From an uncultured Hyphomicrobiales bacterium (GTDB taxonomy: Bacteria > Pseudomonadota > Alphaproteobacteria > Rhizobiales > Beijerinckiaceae), in the NCBI GenBank assembly GCA_903825465.1, contig CAIKAR010000112.1, positions 1-64,000 of the forward strand: 64,000 nucleotides of DNA, written 5' to 3'. This document shows, piece after piece, positions 44,696 to 52,940 of this stretch; within the stretch, counting starts at the first letter, position 1; every line of letters starts with the position of its first letter. A program made the translations under genes and the position numbers. The notes under the pieces were generated by a model that did not search any database, was not told where the DNA came from, and was given only the letters and a program-made list of their open reading frames with translations.

Positions 44696-45724
44696 CTACA
44701 GATAAATTTCCTTCGCCAGCGCGAGGTATTCGTCGATGCGCGTGTTGTCCTCGGGCATCAACGGCTTGACGTTGGCCAGTTTGGCGATCTCGGGCGGCGG
44801 GTCCGACACTTTCACGTCCACGACGGTTCCATGCGCCGTGCGCGCGTAAATCTCCTGGACCTCGTCCGACAGGTAGAAGTCCGCCAGCAGCCGCGCGGCG
44901 TTGGGATGTGGCGCGTTCTTCAGCAGCGACACCGAGTAGGAGCTGGCTATCACGCCGTCCGCGGGCACGACATCGCGCACGGGCAAGCCCTTCACGAGCG
45001 CGGATTGCGAGAAGATCAGCGGCACATAGACGGCGAATTCGCCGCGCGCGATCCGCCGCACCGCCTCGCCGTAGTCGCGCGACATCGATGGTTTGAGCTT
45101 CGCCAGCGCCTCGTGGAAGCCGCGGCCGTATTTGTCCAGCGTCTGCTGAAACATCACACGCCCGCCCCCGGGCGCGCGCGGATCGTCGAACAGGATTTTG
45201 CCCTCCCATTTCGCGTCGAGCAAATCCGTCCATTGCTTCGGCTCCTGTCCGGGCGGGACGAGGGCGTTGTTGACGAGAAACCCATACATGATCGTGAAAA
45301 TCGGCGCCTGATCCGCGTCGGCGCGCGCGGCGTATTCCGGCTTCAGCCGCGCCACGTTGGGCAGGCCGCCCAGCGGGTCGATGTTGTGATCGGCGTCGCG
45401 CCACAGCGTCGTCAAGGACGAGGCGTTGTGCTGGACGTCGCCGAGGTAGCGCCCGGTCCGCTGCTCGATGCGGATGCGCTCGCGCAGCTCGTTGCCGCGC
45501 GCCGCCAGCACCTCGATCTTGATTCCATATTTCGCGTCGAACAATTTGGCGATGGGATCGTGGGTGATGGCGGAAAGATAGCCCGAATAGACGACGACCT
45601 TGCCTTCGCGCTTCGCCGCGGCGATCAGCGCGTCGCCGCCGCCCGCCGTTTGCGCGCGCGCCGGAGCGGCGAACGCGGCCACCGCCGCGCCAATGGCGAT
45701 GTCGCGCCTCGAGGGGTGGCTCAT
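44696..45724 (-). CDS. Iron/spermidine-type ABC solute-binding protein (family 1), orphan
   Basis: 342 residues. The N-terminus (SRRDIAIGAAVAAFAAPARA) carries a twin-arginine-like signal. The mature part has the class-F binding-protein opening VVVYSGYLSAITHDPIAKLFDAKYGIKIEV and PLIFSQSALVKG, like FbpA/PotD relatives. No permease or ATPase is nearby. It lies 7 nt after the paralogous gene at 45732-46757, and the pair is divergent from the nitrile hydratase-like operon. Confidence 0.88.
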   Translation of the reverse strand: MSHPSRRDIAIGAAVAAFAAPARAQTAGGGDALIAAAKREGKVVVYSGYLSAITHDPIAKLFDAKYGIKIEVLAARGNELRERIRIEQRTGRYLGDVQHNASSLTTLWRDADHNIDPLGGLPNVARLKPEYAARADADQAPIFTIMYGFLVNNALVPPGQEPKQWTDLLDAKWEGKILFDDPRAPGGGRVMFQQTLDKYGRGFHEALAKLKPSMSRDYGEAVRRIARGEFAVYVPLIFSQSALVKGLPVRDVVPADGVIASSYSVSLLKNAPHPNAARLLADFYLSDEVQEIYARTAHGTVVDVKVSDPPPEIAKLANVKPLMPEDNTRIDEYLALAKEIYL

Positions 45725-45731
45725 GTCGTCC

Positions 45732-46757
45732 TCACCTGAACAGGTCGATATAGGTCTTCGCCCAGCGCTCGTAGTCTTTTTCGATGTCCGCCGGTCCGAA
45801 GAAATTCGCCTTGAAGCCGCCGGTTTCCGGCGACAGTTCGGGCATCGACGGCGCCATGCCCCCGCGCGTCGGGAAATAATCGGCCTTCTGGAACAGCGCC
45901 TGCCCCTCCGCCGACAGCATGAAATTGACGAACAGGTCCGCGGCCGCCGGATGCGGCGAATCCGCGGTCAGCACTTCGACGGTCATCTGCACCATCGCCG
46001 GTTCGGTCTTCAGCCATTGGACGGGCGCGCCTTTTTTCGCGCTGAGCGCCGCGTGGTGGTTGAATATCTGCAACGCGATCGGGTGTTCGCCCGCTATCAC
46101 CTGGTCGAGCACGGCGCGCGCGCTGGCGTTGATCGCGCCGATGCGCTGGCCGGCGAGCTTGCGCAGATAGCCCATGCCCTTGTCGTCGCCCATCGTTCGC
46201 AGGATGTTGCCGATGAAGCCCGGCGCGCCCGAGATGTCGTTCGGCTTCCAGACGATCTTGTCCCGCCATTGCGGATTCAACAGGTCTTCGTAGGTTTTCG
46301 GACGGTCTTTTTCCGCGACCAGGTCGGTGTTCACCGCCGGCGTCATCACGTAGTAATTCGACGACACCCAATAGTGGCCGGGGTCTTTGAACTGCGGCGG
46401 CAGGGCGGCGGCGTTGGGCGGATCGAACTTGCGCACGGCGCCGGCGTCGACCAGGGTTTTGAGGCCGCTGGTCAGTCCGAAAATGTCGGCCTGCATGCGC
46501 CCGGCCTTGTGCTCGCCCATGATCTTGAGGATCGTGTCCTGGCTGTCGGCGCGCGCGTATTCGACCTTGACGCCGTATTTCGCCTCGAACGCGGCGACGA
46601 GCGGCCGCACGATCTGATCGACGATGAGGTCGGTGTAATAGACGACGGAGCCTTCGGCCTTGGCTTTGGCGATCAGTTCCGCCGGGGGTTCGTCGGCCCG
46701 CGCCGGCGCCGCGGACGCGAGCGCCAAAACGGCGGCGAAACAAGCTCCAATCCTCAT
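45732..46757 (-). CDS. Iron/spermidine-type ABC solute-binding protein (family 1), orphan
   Basis: 341 residues from the ATG at 46757 (GGGGGAGG upstream): signal peptide ending near APARAD, then SVVYYTDLIVDQIVRPLVAAFEAKYGVKVEY and a C-terminal DSPHPAAADLFVNFMLS, as in family 1 binding proteins. Paralogue of the gene downstream (both about 340 residues). Its promoter region is shared with the divergent three-subunit hydratase operon and contains nested inverted repeats, which suggests joint control and a substrate relevant to that enzyme. Confidence 0.88.
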   Translation of the reverse strand: MRIGACFAAVLALASAAPARADEPPAELIAKAKAEGSVVYYTDLIVDQIVRPLVAAFEAKYGVKVEYARADSQDTILKIMGEHKAGRMQADIFGLTSGLKTLVDAGAVRKFDPPNAAALPPQFKDPGHYWVSSNYYVMTPAVNTDLVAEKDRPKTYEDLLNPQWRDKIVWKPNDISGAPGFIGNILRTMGDDKGMGYLRKLAGQRIGAINASARAVLDQVIAGEHPIALQIFNHHAALSAKKGAPVQWLKTEPAMVQMTVEVLTADSPHPAAADLFVNFMLSAEGQALFQKADYFPTRGGMAPSMPELSPETGGFKANFFGPADIEKDYERWAKTYIDLFR

Positions 46758-46876: not shown

Positions 46877-47212
46877 ATGCGCGGACCACACGATGTCGGC
46901 GGCCTGCCGGAGGGGCCGGTCGAAACCGAGGCGCATCCCCTCACGTTCTGGGAAAAGCAGATCGACGGCCTGCGGGCGGCGGTCGGCGCGAAGGGGCTTG
47001 TCAACACGCACGAGAACCGCGCCGCCGTCGAGGCTCTTGGCCACGACGCCTACAACACGCTCCATTATTACGAACGCTGGACGGCGACCCTGTGCCGGCA
47101 GATGATCGAGAAAGGCGTGCTGACGCAGGACGAAATCGACGCGCGGGTCGCGGCCGTGCGGCGGCGCTTGGCCGACACGGGCGAGCTTGAAACCGAGGGC
47201 GGCGCGCCATGA
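46877..47212 (+). CDS. Nitrile hydratase/thiocyanate hydrolase family, beta N-terminal-type subunit
   Basis: 111 residues from the ATG at 46877 (GGGAG 8 nt upstream). It begins with the NHase-beta hallmark HDVGG and ends with the helical segment LHYYERWTATLCRQMIEKGV. This equals only the N-terminal half of a standard NHase beta subunit; the other half is the next gene. The same split is known in thiocyanate hydrolase (ScnB) and toyocamycin nitrile hydratase. It should form the alpha-helical wrap around the metal subunit. Overlaps the next gene by 4 nt. Confidence 0.88.
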   Translation: MRGPHDVGGLPEGPVETEAHPLTFWEKQIDGLRAAVGAKGLVNTHENRAAVEALGHDAYNTLHYYERWTATLCRQMIEKGVLTQDEIDARVAAVRRRLADTGELETEGGAP

Positions 47213-47490
47213 CGCGCTTTTCCGCCGGCGAGCGCGTTCTCGTGCGCGACGACTATCCGCCGGGCCACGTCCGCACGCCCGTTTATCTGCGCGGCAAGAC
47301 GGGCGAAGTTTTGAGGTTCTTCGGCGAATTCGACAACGCGGAAGTGGTCTCCAGCGGCCTCAAAGGCCCCAGAAAAGGCGTCTATAAAGTGCGGTTTCGC
47401 GCCGTCGACCTGTGGGACGATTACAACGGCCCGGCGCGCGACGCCGTGGAGGCCGACATCTACGAGCACTGGCTGGAGAAGATCGCATGA
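47209..47490 (+). CDS. Nitrile hydratase/thiocyanate hydrolase family, beta C-terminal-type (SH3-like) subunit
   Basis: 93 residues matching the SH3-like barrel of the NHase beta C-terminus: FSAGERVLVRDDYPPGHVRTP, YLRGKTGEVLRFFG and a terminal YKVRFRAVDLWDDY. In thiocyanate hydrolase the matching piece is the ScnA subunit. It packs on the metal subunit and helps shape the active-site pocket. It overlaps both neighbours by 4 nt (ATGA each), so the three subunits should be made in equal amounts. Confidence 0.9.
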   Translation: MTRFSAGERVLVRDDYPPGHVRTPVYLRGKTGEVLRFFGEFDNAEVVSSGLKGPRKGVYKVRFRAVDLWDDYNGPARDAVEADIYEHWLEKIA

Positions 47491-48152
47491 GCGGCGACCA
47501 TGATCACGATCACGACCATCACGGCCACGATCACGACCACGACCATCCCCACGCGCCGCCGCAGCCCGACGACAAGGTTCATTCTTATTACCAGATCCTC
47601 GGCGTCGCGCTGAAAGAACTGCTGATCGAGAAGGGAGTCGTCGAGGCGGCGGAGGTCCGTCGCCAAATAGAACGCCGCGATTCGATCACCCCCGCCAACG
47701 GCTCGAAAGTCGTCGCCAAGGCCTGGACCGATCCCGCGTTCCGCGCGCGGCTGTTCGCCGACGGCAATTCCGCCGTCGCCGAACTCGGCTTCGAGATGAC
47801 GACGACAAAACTGGTGGCGGTCGAGAACACGCCCTCCGAGCACAATGTCGTCGTTTGCACGCTGTGCTCCTGCTATCCCCGCGATCTGCTGGGCCTGCCG
47901 CCAAGCTGGTACAAGAGCCGCGCCTACCGCGCCAGGATTGTGCGCGAGCCCCGCGCGGTGCTGGCGGAGTTTGGCACGCGCGTGCCCGACGATGTCGCCG
48001 TCCGCGTGCATGATTCCACCGCCGACATGCGCTTTCTGGTCGTGCCCATGCGGCCGGAAGGCACGCAGGGCCTGCGCGAAGACGAACTCGCCGCGCTTGT
48101 GACGCGCGATTCCATGGTCGGCGTCGCCGTCGCCCGCGCGCCGGAGCGTTGA
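47487..48152 (+). CDS. Co-type nitrile hydratase alpha / thiocyanate hydrolase gamma subunit with His-rich head
   Basis: 221 residues. The metal site VCTLCSCY has Cys124, Cys127 and Cys129; Thr in the second position is typical of cobalt rather than iron enzymes (iron: CSLCSC). The middle cysteines are normally oxidised to sulfinate and sulfenate. The first 22 residues hold ten His alternating with Asp, then a Pro-rich linker (APPQP) leads into the standard core (VHSYYQILGVALKELL). The head may store or load cobalt, since no activator gene is next to it. Product hydrates nitriles or hydrolyses thiocyanate; which one cannot be told from sequence alone. Confidence 0.9.
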   Translation: MSGDHDHDHDHHGHDHDHDHPHAPPQPDDKVHSYYQILGVALKELLIEKGVVEAAEVRRQIERRDSITPANGSKVVAKAWTDPAFRARLFADGNSAVAELGFEMTTTKLVAVENTPSEHNVVVCTLCSCYPRDLLGLPPSWYKSRAYRARIVREPRAVLAEFGTRVPDDVAVRVHDSTADMRFLVVPMRPEGTQGLREDELAALVTRDSMVGVAVARAPER

Positions 48153-48162
48153 GGAAAAACAC

Positions 48163-49005
48163 ATGACAAAATCGTCCGACATCCGCCTCGACGGACGCGT
48201 CGCCATCGTCACCGGCGCCGCCGCCGGCCTCGGCCGCGCCATGGCGCAGGCGTTGACGCGCGCGGGCGCCCACGTCGTCTTCGCCGATCTGGATGTCGGC
48301 AAGGCGGGCCAGGCGGTCGCCGAATGCGCGTTCAAGCCGGGCTGCGGGCGCGCGCTGGCCATGACCTGCGACATCACGAGCAAATCCGACTGCGAGAGGA
48401 CGGTGGCGGAAACCACGCGGCTCTTCGGCGGCCTGCATATTCTCGTCAACAACGCCGGCAAGGGTCCGGCGCATCTCGAGGAACAACCCGCCTACACAAG
48501 CATGAAATTCTGGGAAACCGACCGGGACCGCTGGGCGAAGGTGATCGAGACCAACGTGGTCGGCACCTACTACATGGCGCACGCCGCCGCGCCGCATCTG
48601 ATCCGCGCGGGCTGGGGCCGGATCGTCAACGTGACGACGAGCCTGTCAACCATGCAGCGCAAACAGAACTCGCCTTACGGCGTCAGCAAGACGGCCATCG
48701 AGGCGGAAACGCTGATCTGGGCGCAAGACCTCGAAGGCACCGGCGTCGCCTGCCATTCGCTCGTCCCCGGCGGCGCGGCCAACACCGCGTTTGTCTCCGC
48801 GCTCGGCCGGAAAAACGCCGAGGCGTCGGGGCAAACACTGCTTGAACCCGAGGTGATGATCGCGCCGATCCTCTGGCTCGCCTCCACCCTGTCCGACGGG
48901 CTCAACGGCGGGCGCTACGTCGGCAAGTTCTGGTTGCCCGACATGACGATCGAGGAAGGCGCCGCCGCCGCGCTGGAGCCGCCGGTGCTGCGAACGCCGG
49001 CCTAA
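48163..49005 (+). CDS. Short-chain dehydrogenase/reductase
   Basis: 280 residues, classical SDR: cofactor motif TGAAAGLG (17-24), NNAG (96-99), and catalytic YGVSK (Tyr172, Lys176) with Ser near 160. Asp42-type residue after the second strand (FADLD) favours NAD(H). Starts 10 nt after the hydratase metal subunit on the same strand, so it is probably part of that operon and may act on an alcohol or aldehyde linked to the nitrile. It ends with a 4-nt convergent overlap with pgeF. Confidence 0.9.
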   Translation: MTKSSDIRLDGRVAIVTGAAAGLGRAMAQALTRAGAHVVFADLDVGKAGQAVAECAFKPGCGRALAMTCDITSKSDCERTVAETTRLFGGLHILVNNAGKGPAHLEEQPAYTSMKFWETDRDRWAKVIETNVVGTYYMAHAAAPHLIRAGWGRIVNVTTSLSTMQRKQNSPYGVSKTAIEAETLIWAQDLEGTGVACHSLVPGGAANTAFVSALGRKNAEASGQTLLEPEVMIAPILWLASTLSDGLNGGRYVGKFWLPDMTIEEGAAAALEPPVLRTPA

Positions 49006-51775: not shown

Positions 51776-52792
51776 TCACCGGCCCCGCAGCAACTCGTCG
51801 AACAGCTTGCTCCACTTCCGGTCGTCCTGCGGGCCAAACAGCGTCGGCACGAGTGTCCTGCCCTTGAGCGGGACCAGCGCGTCCGGGGGATTCGTCGCCA
51901 CGTCGGCCCGCACCGGCATGCGGCCGAATTCGGCGGAGCGCGCCTGCGCCTCGCGGCCAACGGCGAAATTGGCCGCGAGCAGCGCCGCGTTGGGGTGCGG
52001 CGCGTTGACGCTGATTCCCACCTGGGCGACATGCGCCGACACCGGATCGAGCGCGAACACGTCGGTCGGGGCGCCCGACATTTTCACCGCGTAGGTGAGG
52101 TTGACGAAGTTGTTGAGCGTCAAGGCGTATTCGCCGGCGCCGACCTGCCGCGCCAGCGCGAGATGGCCGTCCGTGATCACTGGTTCGAGGTTTCGCACAA
52201 GGTCGCCGACGATTTTGCGCGCCTTCGCCTCGCCGTAGAACTGAAATATTCCAGCCAGCCATTGCGTGTCGGTGCCATCGATGGCGACGCGGCCCTTCCA
52301 CTTCGTTTTGGCGGCGAAATCCTCGAAGGATGTCGGCAATTCCGATTTGTCGACGAGCTTCGTGTTGTAGGAGGGCGCGTTGTAGTTGATGGAATGACCA
52401 TACCAGCGCCGGTCGGCCGAAATCGCGATGGGAAGCAGGTTCTTCGCCTCGGGAAGATCGTATTGCGCCAGCAGTTGCGGCGGGTTCTGGCTGACGGAGG
52501 TCGTGACCACGACGTCCCAGCTCTTTTGCGCCGCGCGCCCCTCTATGGCGATGCGCGAGTTAATCGCGACATCCGAGCCACGCACGAACTGGACCTTGAC
52601 GCCGGTGGCGTCCTCGAAAATTTTCCAGACCGGCAACGCCTCGCCCTCGTTGACCGAGGAATAGACGACGACCGAGCCCTCGGCCTTGGCCGCGGCAAGC
52701 TTGTCGGGGATCATCCAGTCGAAAGTCTGCGCGAAGACGGGAAAAGGCGTCGTCAGCGACAGGGCGACAAGGCCGGCGCGCGCGAAAACCAT
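51776..52792 (-). CDS. Iron-type ABC solute-binding protein (family 1), orphan
   Basis: 338 residues from the ATG at 52792 (GGGAGG upstream): signal peptide to about residue 21 (FPVFAQ), then SVVVYSSVNEGEALPVWKIFEDATGVKVQFVRG as in FbpA/Fut-type proteins. Related to the pair at 44.7-46.8 kb. No permease or ATPase genes are adjacent; lgt follows on the same strand after 49 bp, but functional linkage is unlikely. Confidence 0.88.
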   Translation of the reverse strand: MVFARAGLVALSLTTPFPVFAQTFDWMIPDKLAAAKAEGSVVVYSSVNEGEALPVWKIFEDATGVKVQFVRGSDVAINSRIAIEGRAAQKSWDVVVTTSVSQNPPQLLAQYDLPEAKNLLPIAISADRRWYGHSINYNAPSYNTKLVDKSELPTSFEDFAAKTKWKGRVAIDGTDTQWLAGIFQFYGEAKARKIVGDLVRNLEPVITDGHLALARQVGAGEYALTLNNFVNLTYAVKMSGAPTDVFALDPVSAHVAQVGISVNAPHPNAALLAANFAVGREAQARSAEFGRMPVRADVATNPPDALVPLKGRTLVPTLFGPQDDRKWSKLFDELLRGR

Positions 52793-52940
52793 TGTGCCTC
52801 CCAAATGCGCCTCCCGCGGATTGTTGGCCGAGCCTAGCGCCGGAGCGGCCACGGAGCAATGCGCGGGCGCGTCGCTGGACCGCATGGGCGGCGGCGGCTA
52901 CAGAAGCGGCGAATCGCCATCCATCGCCGCGGAAACGCCC

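Follow-up and report, generated by a model that had tools for sequence, protein, structure and literature searches.

A three-subunit cobalt-type nitrile hydratase locus with a histidine-rich alpha subunit in an uncultured Hyphomicrobiales bacterium, and its probable maturation through betaN

Introduction

Cobalt nitrile hydratases (NHases) are industrial catalysts, and their expression usually depends on activator proteins. A 64,000-nucleotide (nt) stretch of DNA from an uncultured Hyphomicrobiales bacterium of the Beijerinckiaceae (contig CAIKAR010000112.1 of assembly GCA_903825465.1, positions 1 to 64,000; hereafter the window) contains a three-subunit NHase locus whose alpha subunit begins with a head rich in histidine and aspartate and which has no activator gene beside it. 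How does such an enzyme obtain its cobalt? A sequence-only reading of the window had proposed that the head is an intramolecular cobalt chaperone replacing the activator, and had named thiocyanate hydrolase as an alternative identity. Our analysis indicates that the locus is probably a non-corrin cobalt NHase of an activator-free lineage, recognised by an arginine in its pocket, and that it most likely matures via its own betaN subunit.

Genes of the locus

The enzyme is encoded by three genes on the forward strand, with 4-nt overlaps between betaN and betaC and between betaC and alpha (lengths in amino acids, aa):

46877-47212, + strand: betaN subunit (NHase beta N-terminal domain; AnhD/ScnB-like), 111 aa; PF21006 75.7 bits, cut-off 21.5
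47209-47490, + strand: betaC subunit (NHase beta C-terminal, SH3-like domain; AnhE/ScnA-like), 93 aa; PF02211 69.3 bits, cut-off 27.7
47487-48152, + strand: alpha subunit, cobalt site CTLCSC followed by YPR, 221 aa; PF02979 272.7 bits
47487-47552, + strand: His/Asp-rich head of alpha, 22 residues with 10 His and 7 Asp, from composition; predicted disorder

Domains, metal motif and gene layout support a three-subunit cobalt-type enzyme with a split beta, as the sequence-only reading had stated, and the motif CTLCSC is present in alpha. In the PDB, betaN matches NHase beta and 2dd4_B, and betaC matches the C half of NHase beta and 2dd4_A. The order betaN-betaC-alpha, described earlier as that of thiocyanate hydrolase, agrees with the Pfam domains and is the same in the thiocyanate-hydrolase-type loci L040-L042. 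The source genome, a draft of 142 contigs that is 98.62% complete, has one copy of alpha. The locus is a real, well-formed operon and adds one member to an already known kind of enzyme.

That kind is represented by the NHase of Streptomyces canus CGMCC 13662 (AnhDEA, ScNHase). According to the available text of its description (PMC7329996), it is of the cobalt type, its genes stand in the order anhD-anhE-anhA, equivalent to betaN-betaC-alpha, and no activator gene was reported in the genome. The likeness to the window lies in the enzyme type, the reported gene order and the lack of an activator gene; S. canus is actinobacterial, and the window has a dehydrogenase gene behind alpha.

Absence of a recognised activator

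No activator gene is adjacent to the locus, as had been noticed before, and nothing besides betaN scored over a cut-off when the whole genome was searched with three models. PF21006 gave only betaN over its cut-off and one sub-threshold match inside alpha; TIGR03889, the model of P14K/NhlE-type accessory proteins, gave nothing over cut-off; and a P15K profile (A1), built from five activators of thiocyanate-hydrolase-type loci, matched betaN only at a threshold of E up to 0.1. The P15K profile was built because TIGR03889 found nothing at E 0.01 in the genomes of L040-L042 (G795-G797), where a P15K-like gene is present, and is therefore insufficient alone for absence. The profile was run on the window's genus, and 40 split-lineage genomes outside the genus were searched with TIGR03889 alone. 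The sequences P0005 and P0007 had no NCBIfam match.

Since a draft may lack genes, the absence of an activator from one genome says little, and the pattern over many genomes carries the weight. Three samples of loci were used. The genus sample has 40 loci (two contig-cut genes counted twice), 3 canonical and 37 split. The phylum sample comes from a PF02979 search of 397 genomes across the phylum, unselected for heads, 75 of which had a match; 78 alpha loci were fetched, excluding the alpha of the window itself and six weak fragments, and 63 of these alphas have an adjacent activator while 15 do not (12 split rows, two Fe-type rows and L218, whose beta is fused and for which no activator was found). 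The actinobacterial sample has 30 loci among the matches listed (51 of 396 genomes with a match), 7 with and 23 without an activator.

Among 51 genomes of the genus, 35 carry a relative of alpha and three an activator above cut-off, which in each case belongs to a second operon of alpha and fused beta. The 40 split-lineage genomes outside the genus comprise 31 from the samples (11/11 of the phylum sample and 20/23 of the actinobacterial sample) and nine others (those of L010-L015, L020, L021 and L050). An activator over cut-off was found in six of the 40 (G531, G415, G976, G933, G790 and G792), and in each of these it accompanies a second alpha with a fused beta (L219, L246, L325, L326, L196 and L193). 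Canonical control genomes had an activator in 10 of 10 cases, and one NHase-free genome had none.

Lineage of the alpha subunit

An alpha tree of 164 rows, made by a quick method with the Shimodaira-Hasegawa-like approximate likelihood-ratio test (SH-aLRT) and no bootstrap, draws on the phylum and actinobacterial samples, on 15 of the 40 loci of the genus and on loci from a pattern scan; it has several long branches. The window lies within a set of 62 rows on a branch with SH-aLRT 99. This set consists of 54 split loci without an adjacent activator, six loci with P15K, L012 (cut by the contig end) and L021 (a fusion). The other 102 rows are 70 activator-bearing loci, 25 pattern-scan loci (23 with an activator open reading frame, ORF), three split loci with an activator, three of the Fe type and one with a fused beta and no activator found.

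The residue after CTLCSC-YP separates the two sets: it is Arg in 62/62 rows of the lineage and in 0/102 others, where it is nearly always Trp. The canonical Co-type NHase (alpha, fused beta and a P14K/NhlE-type activator) shares with the window the alpha family, the CTLCSC motif and usually a His-rich head. Among the 63 activator-bearing alphas of the phylum sample, however, 60 have a fused beta, and the residue in question is Trp in 58, Phe in 3 and His in 2, whereas the window has a split beta and Arg. Thiocyanate hydrolase nests inside the 62-row lineage. The comparison with Scn-type loci that the sequence-only reading had suggested thus places them in the window's lineage, with the window itself outside their P15K-bearing clade.

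Nitrile hydratase or thiocyanate hydrolase

The window alpha passes the NHase equivalog model TIGR01323 (268.3, cut-off 249.85) and fails the thiocyanate hydrolase gamma model TIGR03887 (217.4, cut-off 291.45). The controls L042 (383.1) and L323 (356.8; annotated Azospirillum scnC) pass TIGR03887 and both fail the NHase model. These two related gamma subunits carry a common insertion that is missing from the window alpha. The motif CTLCSC is of the cobalt type; in the phylum sample, the two Fe-type rows read CSLCSC instead.

Thiocyanate hydrolase of Thiobacillus thioparus (ScnABC, PDB 2dd4) has, like the window, a split beta, an alpha-like gamma subunit with a His/Asp head, and CTLCSCYPR; it differs in the Arg-Arg pair of ScnB and in having P15K. 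The window betaN has the conserved pocket Arg R48, and its N47-R48 align with R90-R91 of ScnB. The Arg-Arg pair is present in 6/6 P15K-bearing loci and in T. thioparus, and in one (L020) of 74 aligned rows of the split group. Two arginines reportedly control the selectivity of thiocyanate hydrolase. The window keeps the Arg after CTLCSC-YP, which matches Arg136 of the T. thioparus gamma subunit (2dd4_C), and the structure 3vyg_C has Trp at this position. Since the NHase model is passed and the thiocyanate model failed, the insertion and the Arg-Arg pair are missing, and the Arg after YP is kept, the locus looks like an NHase whose pocket partly resembles that of thiocyanate hydrolase. Its most likely reaction turns a nitrile into an amide, and nitriles would be the substrate class. 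A thiocyanate hydrolase identity, which the sequence-only reading had kept in play, was rejected on the TIGR03887 score, N47 at the position of ScnB Arg90, the absent insertion and the absent P15K.

The histidine-rich head

The head of the window alpha, MSGDHDHDHDHHGHDHDHDHPH, has the ten His in 22 residues reported earlier, together with seven Asp. His is enriched with a binomial P = 3e-12 against a background of 59 His in 3103 residues of 11 window genes, head excluded. Synonymous codons are mixed (CAC 7, CAT 3; GAC 4, GAT 3), so the head is not a fresh DNA repeat, which points to selection on the protein. In AlphaFold2 models (seven alphas) the predicted local distance difference test score was below 50 for residues 1-31 and the core was confident (mean 84.3). 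The head is thus probably disordered, a flexible appendage.

Is the head linked to the lack of an activator? In the phylum sample, heads with at least three His in 20 residues were found in at least 54 of the 63 alphas with an activator, a lower bound because the start choice overlooked heads that begin with GTG or TTG in L243, L254 and L262, and in 12 of the 15 without. The median best 20-residue His count was 5 with and 6 without an activator (Mann-Whitney p = 0.50). Medians were 5 and 4 in the actinobacterial sample (p = 0.56, 7 against 22 alphas), and 11 for canonical and 10 for split loci in the genus (p = 0.47, with only three on the canonical side against 35). The 42 loci taken from the pattern-scan matches listed were not used for head frequency, because DHDHDHDH was among the scan patterns, and a family-level search (216 of 397 genomes with a match) stands outside these statistics.

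Every genus alpha whose start could be read, 38 in total, carries a head (35 of these alphas lack an activator and 3 have one), and the heads vary in sequence and length. Activator-free actinobacterial relatives have poor heads with 2-6 His. The head is absent or poor in two Fe-type alphas, in six activator-bearing phylum alphas (GTG/TTG starts allowed for) and in L281, a split alpha with no head by the start chosen, whose genome has no activator over cut-off. The gamma subunit of T. thioparus thiocyanate hydrolase has a head (N-terminus MSADHDHDHDHDHDH / MSADHDHDHDHDHDHKP), and this enzyme has the activator P15K according to the available text of PMC3511329. In the literature on His-rich NHases, with thin coverage of subscription journals, we found no discussion of the bacterial head.

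Because richness does not differ between alphas with and without an activator in three samples, the head follows lineage and not the lack of an activator. The survey of relatives that the sequence-only reading had called for shows the head to be an ordinary, family-wide feature, and its idea of a chaperone in place of the activator is countered by the samples, by the activator-bearing alphas of the same genus and by T. thioparus. The His/Asp head does not appear to replace an activator. A role in gathering or buffering cobalt close to the site is possible.

Proposed maturation

In the maturation that we propose, alpha would hold cobalt in CTLCSC, and betaN and betaC would jointly fill the role of a normal beta subunit; no dedicated activator would be involved. 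As a free-standing protein distantly homologous to NHase activators, betaN would pair with alpha and aid cobalt entry and cysteine oxidation, and the cobalt-loaded alpha would then be swapped into the full complex. The disordered head may gather or buffer cobalt near the site without replacing an activator. By homology with S. canus AnhD, a role of betaN as a cobalt and subunit-swapping chaperone is the most likely mechanism here. The available text of PMC7329996 describes AnhD as half of beta and as a metal and self-subunit-swapping chaperone acting via an AnhD2A complex, and states that cobalt also enters alpha directly under reducing conditions. A review (PMC11573777), in its available part, repeats this account and notes that in Microvirga flocculans alpha lies between the beta genes. 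The alpha N-terminal part (e.g. of L133, L142 and L160) matches the hidden Markov models of betaN and of activators at about 20 bits, hinting that the alpha N-terminus, betaN and activators share one helical module.

Several points weigh against this maturation. Table 3 of PMC7329996 gives 0.57 mol cobalt for S. canus alpha alone, 0.67 with AnhD and 0.84 for the full complex; alpha alone thus loads cobalt, and betaN may assist insertion but not be required for it. Activity of ToyJ alpha by itself has been reported as well, and the function of AnhD was demonstrated in vitro according to the available text of PMC7329996. The window betaN has no special likeness to activators (16.5 bits with TIGR03889; 19% identity between P0001 and P15K). 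The place of S. canus AnhA in the window's lineage is itself inferred. Three split-beta operons outside the lineage with alpha first (L204, L210 and L232, whose overlapping ORFs could also be frameshifts) have retained an activator: a free betaN is not enough to dispense with one, and activator independence seems to follow the alpha lineage and not the splitting of beta. The genome is a draft, and an activator of an unrecognised type is possible.

Other explanations of the locus concern the head, the reaction and the source of cobalt. It is quite improbable that the head is an intramolecular chaperone standing in for a missing activator: it is strongly rich in His and Asp, is kept in every readable genus alpha and stands in a genome without an activator over cut-off, but its richness does not differ between alphas with and without an activator, L281 is split, lies in a genome without an activator over cut-off and is headless by the start chosen, and T. 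thioparus gamma combines a head with P15K. In the available part of the review PMC7193024, moreover, the (His)17 linker of the Monosiga NHase is not needed for metal incorporation. That the head plays no part in maturation, and is a neutral tail, an aid to solubility or a metal buffer general to the family, seems somewhat doubtful; its probable disorder, its freely varying motif and length and its loss or poverty in several alphas are consistent with this, while a strong His/Asp composition is kept across phyla, beyond what drift would leave.

That the locus is a thiocyanate hydrolase is very improbable. The split beta, the gene order and the presence of thiocyanate hydrolases in the same large lineage would agree with it, as would the Arg corresponding to 2dd4_C Arg136, but this Arg is found throughout the lineage, and the failed gamma model, the missing pair, insertion and P15K, and the window's place outside the P15K-bearing clade argue for an NHase. 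Insertion of cobalt by an unlinked factor, such as a CobW/G3E GTPase of the same genome, is improbable. PF02492 has six matches there, four of them over cut-off, and the activator of Fe-type NHase is a COG0523 protein (PMC2770081, available text); however, PF02492 proteins are also found in 14/14 control genomes, so that their presence says little, and none of the six matches is on the window's contig (C112).

A large lineage recognisable by the Arg after CTLCSC-YP and a split beta, and apparently needing no activator, would be a practical source of simpler enzymes. Comparison of the two natural designs turns the role of the NHase activator into a testable question. Because His-rich heads are so widespread among NHase alphas, they are no sign of activator independence. 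The more interesting by-products are a two-branch pattern in the family, which deserves attention, and natural betaN-His-alpha fusions. In a tentative picture, which we hold to be possible and not yet likely, NHases divide deeply into an activator-dependent branch with a Trp pocket and a branch with an Arg pocket (seen in Pseudomonadota, Actinomycetota and a cyanobacterium), mostly with split beta, that matures by its own betaN. Thiocyanate hydrolase would have arisen inside the latter and gained P15K afterwards, self-maturation would track the alpha lineage (split operons of the Trp branch keep the activator), and the eukaryotic His-rich linker would be an old alpha head trapped between fused subunits.

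Natural fusions of betaN, a His/Asp-rich linker and alpha occur in L021:5524-6603 (Roseomonas sp.) and L277:1981-3804 (G742), with no betaC found in the locus. The NHase of Monosiga brevicollis (beta-His17-alpha) resembles the window in a His-rich stretch directly before alpha and in having no known activator, and differs in being a single fused chain. L021 and L277 look like an intermediate arrangement, and their parallel with the Monosiga chain suggests that the linker in eukaryotes derives from an alpha head that became trapped.

Gene neighbourhood and plasmid relatives

The gene behind alpha, separated by 10 nt, was taken in the sequence-only reading as a hint of a pathway:

48163-49005, + strand: classical short-chain dehydrogenase/reductase (SDR), probably co-transcribed, 280 aa; PF00106 (adh_short) 140.6 bits

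The spacing and the link are real, but the link is conserved in part of the genus only: of 40 genus loci, 12 have an SDR homologue as the next gene after alpha, its aligned start lying at most 55 nt away, and 6 of the 28 loci without it end within 300 nt of alpha. Most loci with the SDR belong to the window's closer relatives, but L128, itself close, lacks one within 2.4 kb. The best solved relatives of the SDR are generic SDRs near 90 bits.

No amidase and no nickel/cobalt transporter were among the window neighbours scanned, which for amidase is no full survey. Neighbours in the genus look catabolic (molybdopterin-binding and [2Fe-2S] proteins, an ATP-binding cassette transporter, GST, DLH) and form no single pathway. 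Xanthine dehydrogenase-type [2Fe-2S] and molybdopterin ORFs, recognised by eye, lie between betaC and alpha in L134:8459-12181, which has a further ORF there, L139:1020-3712 and L160:4780-7553; molybdopterin and [2Fe-2S] proteins were found with Pfam near L129 and L123. In the window, two tandem genes of solute-binding proteins lie upstream on the - strand (44696-46757), of which the nearer begins about 120 nt from betaN and is divergent from it, and a third is at 51776-52885, about 3 kb downstream of the SDR. The window alpha also exceeds the cut-off of the NHLP RiPP leader model TIGR03793 (58.3, cut-off 50.9), as do three of four other alphas scanned.

Six plasmid records were examined among the matches listed (40 of 180 matching records). 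The order betaN-betaC-alpha is found in Streptomyces sp. NBC_01176 and Planktothrix agardhii; alpha lies between betaC and betaN in Microvirga terrae, Agrobacterium pusense and Rhizobium leguminosarum; and Azospirillum ramasamyi has a fused beta with scnC. CTLCSCYPR is shared by all six alphas, whose first 30 residues contain 5 to 10 His. A nickel/cobalt transporter gene is nearby in five of the six loci (HoxN/NixA twice, CbtBA twice, HupE/UreJ once). The NBC_01176 locus (L319; 60.4% identity) combines the window's gene order with an aquaporin and a HoxN/NixA transporter. Aquaporin genes stand directly downstream of the three-subunit NHase genes on both the Streptomyces (L319) and the Agrobacterium (L321) plasmids.

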